From the NCBI RefSeq assembly GCF_019312595.1, contig NZ_JAHWDQ010000001.1, positions 930,001-994,000 on the forward strand: DNA of 64,000 bases. Reading direction: 5' to 3'. The notes under the pieces were generated by a model. It ran no database searches and was not told the origin of the DNA. It worked only from the letters and a program-made list of their open reading frames with translations. The DNA is from Zhongshania aquimaris. GTDB taxonomy: Bacteria; Pseudomonadota; Gammaproteobacteria; Pseudomonadales; Spongiibacteraceae. The translations under genes and the position numbers were made by a program. Below are positions 26,656 through 52,967 of the stretch, piece after piece (positions within the stretch are counted from its first letter, which is position 1; the number at the start of each line of letters is the position of its first letter).

Positions 26656-29628
26656 CTACGCTCGGCGCTGCTGCCAGCCACGAGCTGGCGCTGCTTCAGG
26701 AGCCTTATTTTGTCGCACATCGCTAACCCGCTTGTCGTCTCCAAGCTCAAATCGACCCACCATGTGGTTCAATTCTTGCGCCTGTCCAGATAGCTCCTCT
26801 GCGGCACTGGAAGACTCTTCAGAATCTGCAGCGGTGCGTTGTACCACCTGATCCATATCCGAGATAGCCAAGTGGATTTGTTCAATACCGCTGGTTTGGG
26901 CTTCACTTGCCGTGGTGATCTCATTGACGATATTCGCGACCTTGCCGACAGCACCCATGATGTTCGTTAGCTGACCATTCACATCGCTAGACAAACGACC
27001 GCCATCTTCAGCAGATTCTGCCGATTGCGCGATTAAACTGGCGGTTTTATTTGCCGCCTCTTTGGCACGCTGCGCGAGGTTGCGCACCTCGGCCGCGACC
27101 ACCGCAAAACTGCGTCCTGACTCACCTGCTCTCGCAGCTTCTACAGCGGCATTCAGCGCCAGTAAATTGGTTTGGAAGGCAATCTCATTAATATCATTAA
27201 TGATGGTCTGGGTGTCTTTGGCTGAGGCTTTGATTCGCTCCATCGCACTCAACATTTGACCCATGGTGTTACTACCACACTGGGCCAAATCCTGAGTTTC
27301 CCGTGCGAGTTGCTGCGCGTGGCGAGTATTCTCGGCATTTTGCCGAGTCTGTTCCGCCACTTCATCTAAGGAACGGGTAGTTTGCTCTAGCGATGCCGCT
27401 TGCTGAGAGGCACCAACCGCAACCGAGTGACTGCTTGAGGCAATTAAGCCCGACGCCGCAGAAACCTGTTTAGACGATTCAAGAACGTGGGACATCGAAT
27501 CACGCAGCTGGGAAACGGCAGTATTCACTGAATGCTTCAATTCGTCGAACTGACCGCGATAATCACCAGCAACCTGGACACTCAGTACATTTTCAGCAAC
27601 GGCCTGCATAACCGAAGACACTTCATTTATCGGCGCGGTAATCGCGTCAAGCATGGCATTTATATTTTCTAGCAATCTCAGGTTGTCGCCACTAGCACCA
27701 TCAAGTTTTGCGCGATTCTCTAAACGACCTTCCTGTGTCGCGCGAATTAAAGCCTCTACTTCGGCAACAGTTTCTTTACGCTCGGTAATATTGGTGGCGT
27801 ATTTCACCACTTTAAATACTTTGCCAGAGAAATCTTTAATCGGCGTATAAGAGGCTTGAATCCATATGTCGCGGCCATCTTTGTGTTTTCGGCAAAACTC
27901 ACCAACCTGCGCCTCACCCGCACCTAGCGCCTCCCAAAAACGACGATAGTCATCGGATTTACGATACGATGAATCGACAAACATGTTGTGATGTTTACCG
28001 ACAACTGCGCCCAAGTCATAACCCAAGGTATTCAAAAAGTTATCATTCGCGGTAATTATCGTGCCGTCGGTTTCAAATTGAATTACCGCCTGCGACGAAC
28101 TGATGCCTTGAATCTGTCCCTCAAAATCGGCATTTCGTAACTTTTGATCAGTGACATCACTCGCGTATTTCACGACCTTCACAACCTTGCCCTGAATATC
28201 TTTTATCGGTGTGTAAGAAGCTTGTATCCAAACATCTCGTCCGTCTTTACGAACACGACGAAACTCTCCGGTCTGCGCCTCGCCCGCTGCTAAAGCCGTC
28301 CAGAAGCGACGATATTCCTCGGATTGACGGTAACTGGGATCGACAAACATGCTATGGCTCTTGCCGACCACTTCGTCCGCTCGATACCCAAGCGTTTTCA
28401 GGAAATTATCATTGGCGGAAATAATTTTACCGTCGGTCTCGAATTGAATAACCGCTTGCGATGAACTAATGCCTTCAATTTGGCCGCGGAAATCTGCGTT
28501 CTGAATTTTTTGCGCCGTGATATCAGTGGCGTATTTAACAATTTTAAATACCTTGCCACTCATATCTTTAATGGGTGTGTAAGAGGCCTGGATCCAAACC
28601 TCGTGGCCTTGCTTATGTTTGCGCGAAAACTCGCCGGTTTGGGCTTCGCCAGCAGCGAGTGACGCCCAGAACCGTCGATAGTCATCCGATTTCCCGTAAG
28701 CCGCTTCGACAAACATACTGTGGTATTTGCCAACAACTTCATCGCGACTGTAGCCAATGGTGTTTAAAAAATTATCGTTAGCCGCAATAATCTTGCCATC
28801 AGTTTCAAATTGAATAACCGCTTGAGAGTGACTGATTCCTTCAATTTGACCTTGGAAATCGGCATTGCGAAGCTTTTGCGCGGTAATGTCTGACGCATAC
28901 TTTACAACCTTAAAGACCTTACCTTCCAAATCTTTTATCGGTGTGTATGAGGCTTGCAACCAAATGGTTTTGCCATCTTTTCTTACGCGGCTAAACTCGC
29001 CCACCTTGGCCTGGCCGTTACCGAGCTCTGACCAAAAATTGCGGTATTCCGAAGACTGGCGATAGGTCGGGTCAACAAACATGCTGTGGTGTTTTCCGAC
29101 AACCTCATCACGACTATAGCCAACCGCATTTAAAAAATTATCATTTGCCAGTGTAATCGTACCGCCAACATCAAATTGAATAACGGCCTGATTCAGGCCA
29201 ATTCCTTCAATCTGACCTTTGTAGTCAATATTTCTAAGCTTTTGAGCGGTGATATCGCTGGCGACTTTCACAATACGATTAACATTGCCCGCTTTGTCTA
29301 ATACCGGATTATAGGAAGCTTGTATCCAAAATATATCGCCGTCTTTGGTAAACCGACAAAACTCGCCAGTCTGGGCTTGGCCTTCACTCAGTGCGCCCCA
29401 AAACTCGCGATATTCCGCGCTCTTCGCGTAGCTGGGATCTACAAATATACGATGATGCGCGCCATCTAAGTCCCCAGCTGAATATCCGGTCACACTTAGA
29501 AAGTTAGCATTGGCGGTGATAATAGTGCCGTCAGGTTCAAACTCGATAATTGCCTGAGAAGCGCTGATCGCGTCGAATGTGCTTGATAAACGAGCGTATT
29601 CAGACGTCGTTGTTTTTTTCGCTGGCAT
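26656..29628 (-). CDS. Cytoplasmic methyl-accepting chemotaxis protein with five PAS domains
   Basis: A 990-residue receptor with no signal peptide or membrane segment. Residues 21-630 are five PAS/PAC units of exactly 122 residues, each starting like ISxSQAVIQF and ending [18 protein letters not shown], with units beginning at 21, 143, 265, 387 and 509. A linker follows (about 640-740), then the chemoreceptor signalling domain with hairpin tip [20 protein letters not shown] and [20 protein letters not shown]. The layout is that of BdlA-like soluble PAS-MCP sensors, which sense redox or oxygen through bound heme or flavin; five units is more than usual. No C-terminal CheR-binding pentapeptide is seen. 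Confidence 0.95.
27739..29568 (-). repeat. Five intragenic 366-bp PAS-coding repeats
   Basis: The PAS-coding part of the chemoreceptor consists of five in-frame units of 366 bp. Comparing the first two, and the start positions of all five, shows no insertion or deletion. Units 2-5 are closer to each other than to unit 1. This points to expansion by recombination between in-frame tandem copies. Confidence 0.85.
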
Positions 29629-48338: not shown

Positions 48339-49178
48339 ATGAAAAGAATAGCGTGTATTAGCACGATCACGACCCAGCCCGATGAAGGGGACGCTTCTAC
48401 TCAACTCATGGCGCTCTATAACTCAACTCGAGTTTACAACAGAGAAAATGATATCACCGGCGTATTCCTTGTGTCAGATAGCAGCTGTCTGCAAATTATG
48501 GAAGGAAATGCCGAGTCTTTGGCCAACGCCATTTACCGCATTGGGCGTGATCCTCGTATCAGTGACTTCAGTGTAGTAATGAATAGCAATGCCGACGCGG
48601 CGGAATTTGCCGGTTGGAAGATTCGTATCATAGGCGCCGGAACCGATGCGCATTTAGATTTCATCGCAAGACTCAAAGAAAGCCTGGCGGACAAGATCCA
48701 GGCAAAAAGCAGTACTGATAAAACGCGGCTAGAAAGGTTTTTTGGTCGACCTGAGTTACCTACTCCTACACCGACCACAATATTAGCCACACCAGCCCCC
48801 GCGCCAGCGAACATTAGCAGCACAAGCCAAAAAATATACGATGACTGCGTTGTATCCGTATCTGCGTGGCCGCGACCAACGCAAATGAGGATGACACCAG
48901 AACTTATCCGCCTTTGCTCCAACCTGACAAAAAGACCCGCACATTTCGAACGCATTTTAGCCCTGAAGCTGTGCTCATCTACTGAAAAATTAACTCATTA
49001 CTTGTCAGTACTAGAGAGCTTGGGTCTATTAAAAACACATTCAAGCGTCGGAGTCCCAAACTTGAGGGTAGTTAGCAATCCATCGATAGCAGCCAATACG
49101 ACGGAACAAGCAGTAAATAAAACCGCAGACCGATTTAGCCGAGTTCTCCGACGCTTTATCGCATCTGCTAAATCCTAG
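48339..49178 (+). CDS. BLUF-like protein with substituted photochemical tyrosine and winged-helix-like C-terminus
   Basis: A 279-residue protein. Residues 1-95 follow the BLUF (FAD blue-light sensor) plan: RIACIST, then [51 protein letters not shown] and FAGWKIR. The flavin-contacting Asn (Asn34) and Gln (Gln52) are kept, but the essential Tyr (Tyr8 of PixD) is Cys6, so classical BLUF photochemistry should not occur. A Pro/Thr-rich linker (about 145-165) leads to a C-terminal region ([47 protein letters not shown]) that looks like a winged helix. It is the first gene of an operon with a small GTPase (13-bp gap) and two roadblock proteins, suggesting an input or output part of that switch. Confidence 0.8.
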
Positions 49179-49191
49179 GGCTTCGCTAACT

Positions 49192-49761
49192 ATGGATCAA
49201 ATTTATAATAAATTAGCGATAGTGGGCGAAGTGGGCGCGGGTAAAACCCAGCTCATAAACACTATTAGTGAAATCTCTCCCTTCGCCACAGAAGCGAGGT
49301 CTTCTGTCGATATAGGCAAGGAATTCACGACCGTTGGTATTGATTATGGCCGCTTGAGTCTAGATGCCGATATCGCACTGGGACTTTTTGGATTACCCGG
49401 ACAAAAGCGTTTTTCACTGCTTTGGGACATGGTCAACACTGCTTTGTGGGGGCTGGTCATCTTAGTCAAATACGGTGAAGGTATTAATATCGATGCCATC
49501 GACGATATTCTCAGCCATTTCCAGCCATTAAAAAATAACGTCCCAGTTGTAGTCGGAATCAGCCACTCCGAAAACGCCACGGCTGAGGAATTAGACGTAC
49601 TGATGGAGTTTTTAGAACACGTTTTACAAGGGCACGGTTTATCTGCCCCGATCATGCCTGTTGATCCACGCGATGTTGAGTCTTCTCTCATGCTTCTGCA
49701 AATGATCGATGCAATCAGCAACACGGAAGAGCCCGAAGGAGCACAACTACATGTCGGATAA
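49192..49761 (+). CDS. Small Ras-like GTPase, COG2229 type
   Basis: A 189-residue single-domain GTPase. Walker A is GEVGAGKT (residues 12-19), the switch I threonine is in [11 protein letters not shown], and G3 reads [10 protein letters not shown] where the usual DxxG aspartate is Gly, as in other COG2229 proteins. The N/TKxD motif is not recognisable ([10 protein letters not shown] stands in its place), so base specificity is uncertain. Relatives are encoded beside roadblock/LC7 proteins, which act as GAPs or scaffolds, in the manner of MglA/MglB. It overlaps the first roadblock gene by 11 bp. Confidence 0.88.
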
Positions 49762-50158
49762 TAAAAAATTGAGTGAGCAGCTAATTGGCTTATTCAATGA
49801 ATATTCGAGCAACAATGACGCGATAGAGATTATCTCACTGGCAACCACAGACGGATTTCCCGTTCATCACTTTTCACGCCTGAGCGAAGGATTTGATGTC
49901 GAAACTATGGCCGCAGCGGCAAGCACCCTGTACTCCGTAAGCAATGCCGTGACCAAACAGATTCTGTCGAAAAGCTTCAAAATCACCTTCATTGAATCAG
50001 AGCAGGGCAATGTCGCCTTTGTTGCGCTGCAATTGAATGACAAGGACTTTGTACTGTCCATGTCGGCTAAAGGCGCCATGAATATCGCTAGTTTACGCTT
50101 ACTAATAAACCGCTTAGCAGTTGAAATTGGCGATCTCGATTTAGCCAATGTTGCTTAG
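49751..50158 (+). CDS. Roadblock/LC7 domain protein 1
   Basis: A 135-residue protein from ATG 49751, which has AAGGAG 9 bp upstream inside the GTPase gene. The fold pattern fits roadblock/LC7: a helix ([18 protein letters not shown]), the strand [36 protein letters not shown] and the later strands ([18 protein letters not shown]). Such proteins dimerise and contact the switch regions of partner small GTPases. The 11-bp overlap with the GTPase gene supports a 1:1 functional pair. Confidence 0.85.
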
Positions 50159-50285
50159 CCAGCAGAACACTCTGGCGCCGGAATCGACACACCCATGCTA
50201 AGGCAAAATAAGAAAGTCAAAGGGTCCAAATCGTTAGAATTTAATTTGCCAAAACAAAACAGATTTAACCAGGAGAGTAAAAACT

Positions 50286-50648
50286 ATGAGTAATTTAAAC
50301 GACGCCGTAAAAAGCATGATGGAAATCGACGGCGCAATGGGTTGTGCAGTTGTGGATTACACTTCAGGAATGCTATTAGCTTCGGCTGGCTCTGGGGTTG
50401 ACCTTGAAATGGCTGCAGCTGGTAACAGTGAAGTGGTCAAGGCAAAAATGAAAACCATGAAATCACTGGGCATTACCGGAAAGATCGAAGATATTTTGAT
50501 CACACTGGACACACAGCTTCATATCATCCGTCCAAGCGCGAGCAATGAAGGCCTATTTATCTATCTCGTACTCGATAAAAAGAACTCAAATCTCGCCCTA
50601 GCCCGCCGTAAAACTGCGGACATTGAAGGCGACCTAAAGCGCGTTTAA
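50286..50648 (+). CDS. Roadblock/LC7 domain protein 2
   Basis: A 120-residue protein with CCAGGAGAG upstream. Features are a start helix (LNDAVKSMMEIDGAMGCAVV), DYTSGMLLASAGSGVDLEMA and IEDILITLDTQLHIIRPSA, LFIYLVLDKKNSNLALARRK. It is a shorter and clearly different LC7 member from protein 1, 127 bp downstream, so the GTPase may have two distinct partners or the two may form a heterodimer. It ends the operon at a terminator. Confidence 0.83.
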   Translation: MSNLNDAVKSMMEIDGAMGCAVVDYTSGMLLASAGSGVDLEMAAAGNSEVVKAKMKTMKSLGITGKIEDILITLDTQLHIIRPSASNEGLFIYLVLDKKNSNLALARRKTADIEGDLKRV

Positions 50649-50707
50649 AAGATGTGAACTAGGATTCAAATGCGCGTCACGGCATTTGAATCTGTATAGC
50701 CCAATGT

Positions 50708-50740
50708 AAAAACGCCCTCACAAAGAGGGCGTTTTTATTT
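50708..50740. terminator. Bidirectional terminator between roadblock operon and glnN
   Basis: AAAAACGCCCTC (50708-50719) pairs with GAGGGCGTTTTT (50725-50736) across a 5-nt loop; A and T tracts on the two sides serve the convergent genes. Confidence 0.92.
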
Positions 50741-50792: not shown

Positions 50793-52967
50793 TTATTTAA
50801 TAAATAACATCTCCGAATACTTAGGCAGCGGCCACAGATCATCAGCAACCAATGTTTCCAAAGTATCAGCGTGGCCACGCACTTCAACCATCAGGCTACG
50901 CAGAGTGCTTGCAGCGTACTGCATATGCGCTTCGGTAGAATCAAAGTCATGCGCGTCTAACGCTGCGCTTAATGTCGCTACTGCCGCCATCATCGCATTC
51001 GCTTCGCCGGCAACCGCTGACGCAACACTGCTATCAAGGGTGATGTTCAAGGCAGCCATAGACGACGCAGTGCTCGCAATTTGCGACAAGTACTCAACAG
51101 CCGCTGGGTAGATCATGGTCGTTGCCATATCAACTACCAGCTTGGCTTCTACTTCAATGGACAGCAAGTACTGCTCTGAATACACCTCGAAGCGGCTCGC
51201 CAGCTCAACTGGCGTTAATACGCCAGTGCTAGAGAACAATTTAACAACCGCTTCGTCGCGGAAGGCAGGTAGTGCATCAGCTGACGTCGGCAGGTTTTTC
51301 AGACCACGTTCTTCAACAGCAATACGGTGCCATTCGCTCGAATAACCGTCGCCGCCGAAAATCACGTTACTGTGACCTTCCATCAACTCTTTCAATACTT
51401 TGATAGCCGCTACTGGTTTGCTAGTACCGGTCGCCAATTCTGCTTCCAGCTTGTCGGCAATCCAGTTTAAGGAGTCAGCCAACATGGTATTCATCGCAAC
51501 CAATGGACCAGAAACCGAGGCAGATGAACCCACCGCGCGGAATTCAAAACGGTTGCCAGTGAATGCGAATGGCGAAGTGCGGTTACGGTCGCCTGGATCA
51601 CGCTCAAATTTCAGTATTTGGCTTAGACCTAAATCCATAAAGCCGCCCACTTCAGACTTCAACAATTTGCCTTCCTTGATGTCGTTAAATACGCGCTCTA
51701 ACTGGTCACCAAGGTAAACAGACAGGATGGCAGGTGGGGCTTCATTGGCACCTAAACGGTGGTCATTTGAGGCGGAAGCGATAACCGCGCGCAATAATGG
51801 GCCAAAAAGGTGCACGCCACGAATTACCGCACCACAAAAGAGCAAGAAGTTAATGTTGTCGTGTGGGGTGCTGCCAGGGTCAAGCAAGTTACCCTGAGTC
51901 GCGTTACCAACCGACCAATTCACGTGTTTTCCCGACCCATTAACGCCTGCAAACGGTTTTTCGTGTAATAAACATACAAAACCATGTCGCTTAGCCGTTA
52001 GCTTTAACAGTGTCATTAGAAGTTGCTGGTGGTCAGACGCGATATTCGCTGCCTCATAATAGGGCGCGATTTCAAACTGACCTGGTGCGACTTCGTTGTG
52101 GTGAGTTTTAGCCGGAATACCTAAACGGTACAACTTATCCTCTAAATCCTGCATGAACACTTGCACACGCTCTGGAATAGCAGCGAAGTAATGATCGTCA
52201 AACTGCTGGCCCTTCGCTGGCGAAGAACCGAATAGTGTGCGGCCCGCCAACAGTAAATCTGGACGGCTATTGGCGAAATTCGAATCGATCAGGAAGTATT
52301 CTTGCTCAGCGCCACAGCTAGAATTCAGCGCCGCAACGTCAGTTTCACCCATTAGAGACAATACGCGCTGGCCAGCTTTATTCATTGCCGAATTTGAGCG
52401 CAATAGCGGGATTTTCTTATCCAAGGCTTCGCCGGTCCAGCTCATGAAAACGCTTGGAATCATCAGCGTCGAACCATTGTCGGTGTGCATAATATAAGCT
52501 GGGCTGGTTGGATCCCACGCGGTGTAACCACGCGCCGCATTGGTCATGCGCAGGCTGCCGTTGGGGAAAGAAGAGCCATCAGGCTCGCCTTTAATCAGCA
52601 AACTGCCAGTAAATTCTGTGATTTGGTTGCCATCGGAATTAGTGATAATAAAACCGTCATGCTTTTCAGCGGTGGCATTGGTCATTGGGTAGAAAATGTG
52701 TGAGAAGAACTTAGCGCCTTTGCTCAGTGCCCAATCTTTCATGGCAGCAGCGACTACATCGGCAGTCGCCGCATCGAGTGGCGCACCGGTTTGCACGGTG
52801 GTTTTCAATGCCTTAAATGCGTTTTTAGACAGTGCTTCTTCCATCTTTGACAGATTGAAAACATCACTTGCCCAGATTTTACTGAGAGGCTCAGGCATCG
52901 TAACGTCAATTGGCTTACGATTAACTATCTGGGAAACAGCTTGAACACGCGCTTGATTGCGACTCAT
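50793..52967 (-). CDS. glnN: Glutamine synthetase type III
   Basis: A 724-residue enzyme making glutamine from glutamate and ammonia. Length and sequence (SKGAKFFSHIFYPMTNATAE, AEQEYFLIDSNFANSRPDLL, THHNEVAPGQFEIAPYYEAA) place it in GSIII, the large hexameric/dodecameric type common in Bacteroidetes and cyanobacteria and less usual in gammaproteobacteria, which rely on GSI. It stands alone; no NtrC-type site was noticed upstream. Confidence 0.95.
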   Translation of the reverse strand: MSRNQARVQAVSQIVNRKPIDVTMPEPLSKIWASDVFNLSKMEEALSKNAFKALKTTVQTGAPLDAATADVVAAAMKDWALSKGAKFFSHIFYPMTNATAEKHDGFIITNSDGNQITEFTGSLLIKGEPDGSSFPNGSLRMTNAARGYTAWDPTSPAYIMHTDNGSTLMIPSVFMSWTGEALDKKIPLLRSNSAMNKAGQRVLSLMGETDVAALNSSCGAEQEYFLIDSNFANSRPDLLLAGRTLFGSSPAKGQQFDDHYFAAIPERVQVFMQDLEDKLYRLGIPAKTHHNEVAPGQFEIAPYYEAANIASDHQQLLMTLLKLTAKRHGFVCLLHEKPFAGVNGSGKHVNWSVGNATQGNLLDPGSTPHDNINFLLFCGAVIRGVHLFGPLLRAVIASASNDHRLGANEAPPAILSVYLGDQLERVFNDIKEGKLLKSEVGGFMDLGLSQILKFERDPGDRNRTSPFAFTGNRFEFRAVGSSASVSGPLVAMNTMLADSLNWIADKLEAELATGTSKPVAAIKVLKELMEGHSNVIFGGDGYSSEWHRIAVEERGLKNLPTSADALPAFRDEAVVKLFSSTGVLTPVELASRFEVYSEQYLLSIEVEAKLVVDMATTMIYPAAVEYLSQIASTASSMAALNITLDSSVASAVAGEANAMMAAVATLSAALDAHDFDSTEAHMQYAASTLRSLMVEVRGHADTLETLVADDLWPLPKYSEMLFIK

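Follow-up and report, generated by a model that had tools for sequence, protein, structure and literature searches.

The 64,000-nucleotide stretch of Zhongshania aquimaris DNA analysed here (the window) contains four co-directional genes encoding a BLUF-domain protein, a small GTPase, and two roadblock proteins, RB1 and RB2. The first gene product joins the BLUF domain through a linker to a C-terminal winged-helix-like domain and is referred to below as BLUF-C. The features are as follows:

48339..49178, plus strand: BLUF-C, sensor or putative input protein, 279 aa (Pfam, AlphaFold model, fold matches, same-slot relatives)
48339..48743, plus strand: BLUF domain, residues 1-135
48354..48356, plus strand: codon 6, TGT (Cys), equivalent of the photoactive Tyr8 of Slr1694 (alignment)
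48834..49175, plus strand: C-terminal winged-helix-like domain, residues 166-279 (model secondary structure, alignment A6, weak wHTH matches, DUF742 profile comparison)
49192..49761, plus strand: MglA-family small GTPase, 189 aa (motifs, profile alignment)
49751..50158, plus strand: RB1, roadblock/LC7 protein 1, 135 aa (Pfam Robl_LC7 above cut-off, profiles)
50286..50648, plus strand: RB2, roadblock-fold protein 2, 120 aa (fold, relatives)
50706..50738, no strand: bidirectional intrinsic terminator (14 bp stem, -20.8 kcal/mol, z -7.0)

Gaps of 13, -11, and 127 bp separate the four genes, and the terminator, absent from the output of one other scan, divides the operon from a convergent glutamine synthetase III gene. 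This anatomy had been proposed in a sequence-only reading, and every element of it was confirmed: the BLUF protein, the GTPase, two roadblock proteins on one strand, their spacing, and the strong two-way terminator. A Pfam scan of the four operon genes and three flanking genes detected no histidine kinase (CvnA). Elsewhere in the window (26656-29628), a 990-aa chemoreceptor-like protein carries five similar PAS-like units in tandem, as judged by eye from its translation.

Conservation and distribution of the gene set

Relatives were collected by scanning contigs with eight GTPases, from which the best 80 loci of 218 relatives were kept. Together with regions from genome searches, these gave 114 GTPases besides that of the window, or 82 after dereplication at 92%. 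Forty-eight of the 82 lie in the same half of the GTPase tree as the window's own GTPase, 39 of them with uncut surroundings. Since loci were selected by GTPase similarity, the resulting counts measure the company kept by the GTPase. In the near clade, that company includes a C-domain gene, RB1, and RB2 on the same strand in all 39 uncut neighborhoods, with midpoints within 2.6 kb. A BLUF domain is also present in 32 of the 39, fused in 29 and encoded by a separate gene in three (Marinicella). For the 34 distant GTPases, profile hits that were not individually checked place the C-domain at 19 of the 24 uncut loci, RB1 at 20, and RB2 at 12. Gene order is BLUF-GTPase-RB1-RB2 in the window's clade and RB2-BLUF-GTPase-RB1 in Psychrobacter and Arenicella.

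These data bear on the possibility that the four genes adjoin by accident or form a decaying relic. A patchy distribution, in which 5 of the 18 genomes from the window's genus carry the GTPase, would suit such an origin. However, the neighborhoods are conserved, the reading frames are open, and RB2 is 50-94% identical to 14 near relatives, so that this explanation appears highly improbable. The sequence-only reading was to fall if homologues of the four genes proved rarely to be neighbors; the counts show the opposite, contradicting an accidental operon.

A full-length BLUF-C protein occurs in 7 of the 18 genus genomes. At the level of the order, the GTPase was found in 13 of 145 genomes (E<=1e-6). 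In the class sample, a search with the GTPase alignment, which also catches distant members, hit 62 of 369 genomes at E<=1e-20. A protein search with alignment A3 returned 19 proteins, mostly of the window's clade. An iterated BLUF profile drifted and gathered proteins that had only the C-domain in common; the N- and C-domain models were consequently split and the loci recounted. Five loci (L023, L083, L084, L085, and L090) and one ORF of L086 were manually removed from the BLUF count. At L083, L084, L085, L086, and L090 the N-domain does not resemble BLUF, and L023 is the same region as L084.

Several loci deviate from the common arrangement. The 72-kb plasmid pSU2 of Agarilytica rhodophyticola (L193) carries BLUF, GTPase (54.7%), and roadblock genes, with a 119-aa "hypothetical" protein in the place of RB2. 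At L170 the set occurs in two tandem copies, and the GTPase gene is apparently missing from the first. Two further loci, L171 and L173, have one C-domain sensor gene flanked by two GTPase genes, together with a single RB1.

Nitrogen-assimilation genes adjoin 11 of the 114 loci; these cases are few and clustered by kinship. They comprise glutamine synthetase III in the window's genus, glnA in Acinetobacter, glnK-amtB in one class genome, and an AmtB-like gene in L057. Such genes stand beside the operon in separate lineages (Acinetobacter loci L094, L096, L097, and L101; L173; the window at 50793-52967), which may be chance.

The GTPase and roadblock proteins among known systems

The GTPase motifs read GEVGAGKT (G1), TT (G2), GLPGQ (G3), SHSE (G4, without the Lys of [NT]KxD), and DPR (G5). 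T46 and T47 are invariant in alignment A1 (13 sequences), and G2 has Thr where Group 1 has its arginine finger. Among five distant A1 rows, GTPGQ occurs in 5/5 and DAR in 3/5, against GLPGQ and DPR in the window. With 189 aa and both RB1 and RB2 adjacent, the GTPase falls under the Group 3 rule (single-domain, 150-240 aa, one or two MglB within four genes).

RB1 passes the Pfam Robl_LC7 gathering score (24.7 vs 23 bits), and its profile matches solved roadblocks at 6.9e-14 and CvnB5 at 2e-11. Its D34 and G35 are invariant in alignment A5 and correspond to the D-G pair that characterizes MglB in Groups 2-5. RB2 also has a roadblock fold, without the D-G pair. In Pfam it gave no Robl_LC7 match at E<=1, and LAMTOR5 appeared at 0.01 (16.4 vs 27 bits). 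Kinship between RB2 and RB1 rests on the fold, since their profile comparison reached only 19.5%; against conservon roadblocks, RB2 scored a weak 34.5%. Among near relatives, RB2 is better conserved than RB1 and the sensor. Its identity to the 14 aligned near relatives is 60-78% for 12 and 94 and 50% for the other two.

Group 3 MglA systems were described from genomes of beta- and gamma-Proteobacteria in 2014 (Wuichet and Sogaard-Andersen, PMC4316618). As far as the accessible part of that account goes, the set combines an MglA homologue and one or two MglB homologues with a partner protein of unknown function whose N- and C-terminal parts are both conserved; Phyre2 assigned the partner a receiver-like N-part and a winged-helix-like C-part. 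On that description, the window's operon fits a Group 3 MglA system. Shared features include the two-domain partner with a winged-helix-like C-terminus, the MglA-like GTPase, and one or two MglB proteins. The Thr in place of Arg in G2, the missing Lys in G4, and the D-G pair in RB1 also agree. In contrast, the N-domain is receiver-like in PMC4316618 and BLUF in the window, and G3 and G5 read GLPGQ and DPR in the window as opposed to GTPGQ and DAR, in a comparison by motifs and description. Because the receiver-like description was a Phyre2 prediction, the BLUF N-domain is classed here as a Group 3 variant. The sequence-only reading, which knew of no characterised system with this combination, is superseded to the extent that the architecture fits systems reported from genomes in 2014. 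Among the matches listed in the literature search, none described experiments with a Group 3 MglA system. The literature searched, mostly without subscription papers, held no account of a BLUF-GTPase system. A Spongiibacter BLUF gene adjoins a chemotaxis cluster, and that report mentions neither a GTPase nor a roadblock (PMC8805636).

The actinobacterial conservons (CvnA-D, Mfp) represent a second point of comparison. The GTPase profile aligns with CvnD at 99.8% probability (8 sequences) and RB1 with CvnB roadblocks at 98.1% (7 sequences), both sets being drawn from Streptomyces and Amycolatopsis in 8 of 127 plasmid records. Alignment A8 leaves out the conservon roadblock L200, an over-long ORF. 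Both systems combine a sensor, a roadblock, a winged-helix-like protein, and a GTPase. Unlike the conservons, the window's operon has no histidine kinase, its sensor is fused to the winged-helix part, it includes a second roadblock, and its DUF742 link is weak (64.8%).

The Myxococcus MglA/MglB/MglC module likewise unites a small GTPase with two roadblock-fold proteins, MglC being an MglB paralog in the part of the source available. The window's GTPase differs in lacking an intrinsic arginine finger beside the G2 Thr, and polarity or motility evidence is absent. The sequence-only reading had suggested polarity or surface motility as a possible output, and membership in the same GTPase superfamily would be compatible with a role like that of MglA in Myxococcus, governing cell polarity, surface motility, or type IV pili. 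All 13 GTPase-bearing genomes of the order have pilT-family genes, but so do 116 of the 132 others (129/145 overall, p 0.36). No pilus gene was recognised by eye among 25 recurring neighbor families, and the Group 1 arginine finger is absent. FlhA-family genes, whose models also match type III secretion proteins, gave no signal either (7/13 GTPase-bearing vs 98/132 other order genomes, p 0.19). The link to polarity and motility thus found no support in these counts, and we consider such an output unlikely.

The BLUF domain and loss of the photoactive tyrosine

The BLUF fold is present in the window's protein according to Pfam (1.2e-13), an AlphaFold model, and fold matches. The fold search also listed spliceosomal Prp3 and acylphosphatase chains among and below the BLUF rows, the arrangement being a common one. 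In fold and domain family, the protein resembles the BLUF photoreceptors Slr1694/PixD, Tll0078, and BlsA. It differs from all three in having Cys6 instead of the photoactive Tyr and Ile instead of the His of the DxRH motif. N34, Q52, D71, R73, and W93 are retained, N34 and Q52 being the equivalents of Asn32 and Gln50. The Tyr, Gln, and Trp counterparts in BlsA are indispensable both for motility under light control and for solubility, according to the available text (PMC6695109).

Residue changes were tabulated for 43 BLUF rows in Slr1694 numbering, the Slr1694 letters having been verified against PDB 2hfn. The rows comprise the 39 of the dereplicated GTPase set, window included, and four added genus rows (L161, L164, L165, and L166), all with Cys. 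At residue 8, 21 rows have Tyr and 22 have Cys. The Tyr-type rows keep the pocket nearly intact (N32 in 21, Q50 in 20, D69 in 21, R71 in 21, H72 in 20, W91 in 20). In the Cys-type rows, the corresponding counts are 18, 12, 17, 15, 0, and 21. As the sorting uses residue 8 itself, the independent count is the tree clade only. A larger alignment of 64 rows holds 35 Tyr, 23 Cys, 3 Asn, 1 Ser, 1 gap, and a yardstick row; the 43-row table leaves out those with Asn, Ser, or a gap, which are N-domains other than BLUF and a single ORF truncated at its 5' end.

The history of the substitution was traced on a tree of the GTPase, RB1, RB2, and the C-domain, with the BLUF domain omitted (540 columns, 43 rows). 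Of its rows, 36 have a fused BLUF domain (18 Tyr, 18 Cys) and 7 do not. The window's clade consists of 17 rows, 17/17 with Cys (support 99/96), and its sister is a Tyr-type pair (100/97). One further Cys row, L075, is placed elsewhere, giving a minimum of two Tyr/Cys changes. A quick tree of the GTPase alone nests the Tyr pair L038/L046 among Cys rows and gives three changes; the longer alignment is preferred. The best tree implies a single loss of the tyrosine in the window's clade, from an ancestor with a normal-looking BLUF protein, a history with which the GTPase-only tree disagrees. In the longer tree, the rows of the window's genus do not form one clade: the window pairs with L162 (100/100) near Gilvimarinus (90/69), and L163 groups with Teredinibacter (95/90). 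This pattern suggests transfer or an old duplication.

The BLUF domain serves as N-terminal module in a lineage that includes Psychrobacter, Arenicella, Zhongshania, and others. Tyr-type relatives should be blue-light receptors, since the photoactive tyrosine and almost every other residue of the pocket are retained in them. The window's domain is probably a derived, light-blind member, and the substitutions listed above point to an eroded flavin pocket in its clade. Given the retention of N34, Q52, D71, R73, and W93, the protein may still bind flavin. Loss of tyrosine may also lock a BLUF domain instead of killing it, as hinted by the title of PDB entry 3mzi, which names a "pseudo-Signaling State" of the Slr1694 Y8F mutant. 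The presence of Cys in every row of the clade hints at a use for this residue.

The window's BLUF domain could still sense light or redox through flavin, with Cys6 as a new reactive group. Constancy of the Cys in a clade defined without the BLUF domain and the retained N34, Q52, and W93 favor this reading, whereas Q50 is lost in 10/22 and H72 in 22/22 of the Cys-type rows, and we regard it as improbable. A more specific version envisages a blue-light-gated Ras-like switch in Psychrobacter, Arenicella, and relatives, in which a single Tyr-to-Cys change gave the window's branch a cysteine-based (thiol/redox) input to the same GTPase. This scenario appears slightly more doubtful still.

The C-terminal domain and possible outputs of the switch

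The C-domain is the portion common to the sensor proteins of distant GTPase loci (alignment A6, profiles), and in the model it closes with a helix at residues 265-278. It is predicted to be winged-helix-like from this model and from weak matches to SmtB, MukE, and MarR (E 0.04-0.5). Against 8 DUF742 proteins, its profile reached 64.8% probability (E 6e-5, 70 columns), compared with 0.2% for a LysR control that was a single sequence and not a profile. A resemblance to CvnC/DUF742 of the conservons is therefore weak and suggestive only, and this likeness favors direct action of the C-domain on the GTPase. MfpC, a CvnC homologue and DUF742 protein, is termed a likely GEF in the accessible text of PMC13343842, and another Mfp account left that role open. 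Ten sensor proteins without BLUF (8 distant, 2 near) matched no Pfam family above cut-off, in 10/10 cases.

Alternatively, BLUF-C could be a DNA-binding transcription regulator controlled by the GTPase and roadblock module. A transcriptional output of Group 3 MglA systems was suggested by the 2014 authors in the available text (PMC4316618), and the weak winged-helix matches agree with it. Orphan BLUF-C proteins also exist. Two genomes of the window's genus, both single-contig and rated 100% complete (G516, locus L165; G520, locus L164), keep BLUF-C with no GTPase match at E<=1e-6, and neither a GTPase nor a roadblock gene lies beside the orphan at either locus. G517 retains the N-domain only. 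Given these orphans, BLUF-C may also act independently of the GTPase, for instance by binding DNA, or the orphans may reflect decay.

A 31-bp palindrome between the RB2 and BLUF-C genes in Psychrobacter is also consistent with DNA binding. Its pattern, ATTYGNTATNTAN7TANATANCRAAT (for example, L186:1501-1531), has 9 occurrences, spread over 7 of the 60 genomes from this genus, and a control pattern gave 0. All 9 sites adjoin RB2 and 8 also adjoin BLUF-C; at the ninth, the contig ends on the BLUF-C side. The palindrome could be an operator, or it could instead act as an RNA hairpin. However, the sites are local only and the search pattern was derived from these same loci, while 53 of the 60 genomes lack an exact match. 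Upstream of the window's operon, a search with arms of 8, loops of 0-12, and one mismatch revealed no shared operator or palindrome; short imperfect palindromes upstream of L161 and L017 are not common to the window. Furthermore, CvnC, which the C-domain resembles as well, is a suspected exchange factor. A transcription-regulator role is accordingly best treated as tentative and, on balance, rather unlikely.

The most likely reading is a Ras-like switch with an input of photoreceptor descent that no longer sees light normally. We assign a probability of about 0.6 to the fuller form: an MglA-family switch of the Group 3 kind, with a BLUF and winged-helix-like input protein, that ancestrally took a blue-light signal and whose input has been locked or repurposed in the window's clade. 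The N-domain would alter its state upon a signal, which the C-domain would relay to the GTPase, perhaps by promoting nucleotide exchange in analogy to CvnC/MfpC. RB1 would act as the GAP, as MfpD and MglB do, and RB2, the second and highly conserved roadblock, may scaffold or bias the complex. Blue light would be the signal in the ancestor and in Tyr-type relatives (18 of the 36 fused rows), and the Tyr-to-Cys change with the eroded flavin pocket would leave the input locked or repurposed. What the analysis establishes directly is the gene anatomy, the BLUF and RB2 folds, conservation of the neighborhood, and the residue substitutions with the clade that they define; light sensing in relatives, its loss in the window's clade, the GAP and exchange functions, and any output are inferred. 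The earlier idea of a complete GTPase switch is partly borne out: it stands for the conserved GTPase and roadblock proteins, the BLUF-derived partner, and the winged-helix-like tail; it requires revision for the BLUF domain itself, which lacks the photoactive tyrosine (Cys6) and is derived.

What is new here concerns the sensor's identity and history, through which the sensor of a Group 3 MglA system gains a named domain family. The light-responsive look of half of the sampled BLUF-type relatives would allow light-controlled cycling of the GTPase and a direct readout of its output. Loss of the tyrosine in one clade, in turn, offers a natural before-and-after pair for the function of a former photoreceptor.
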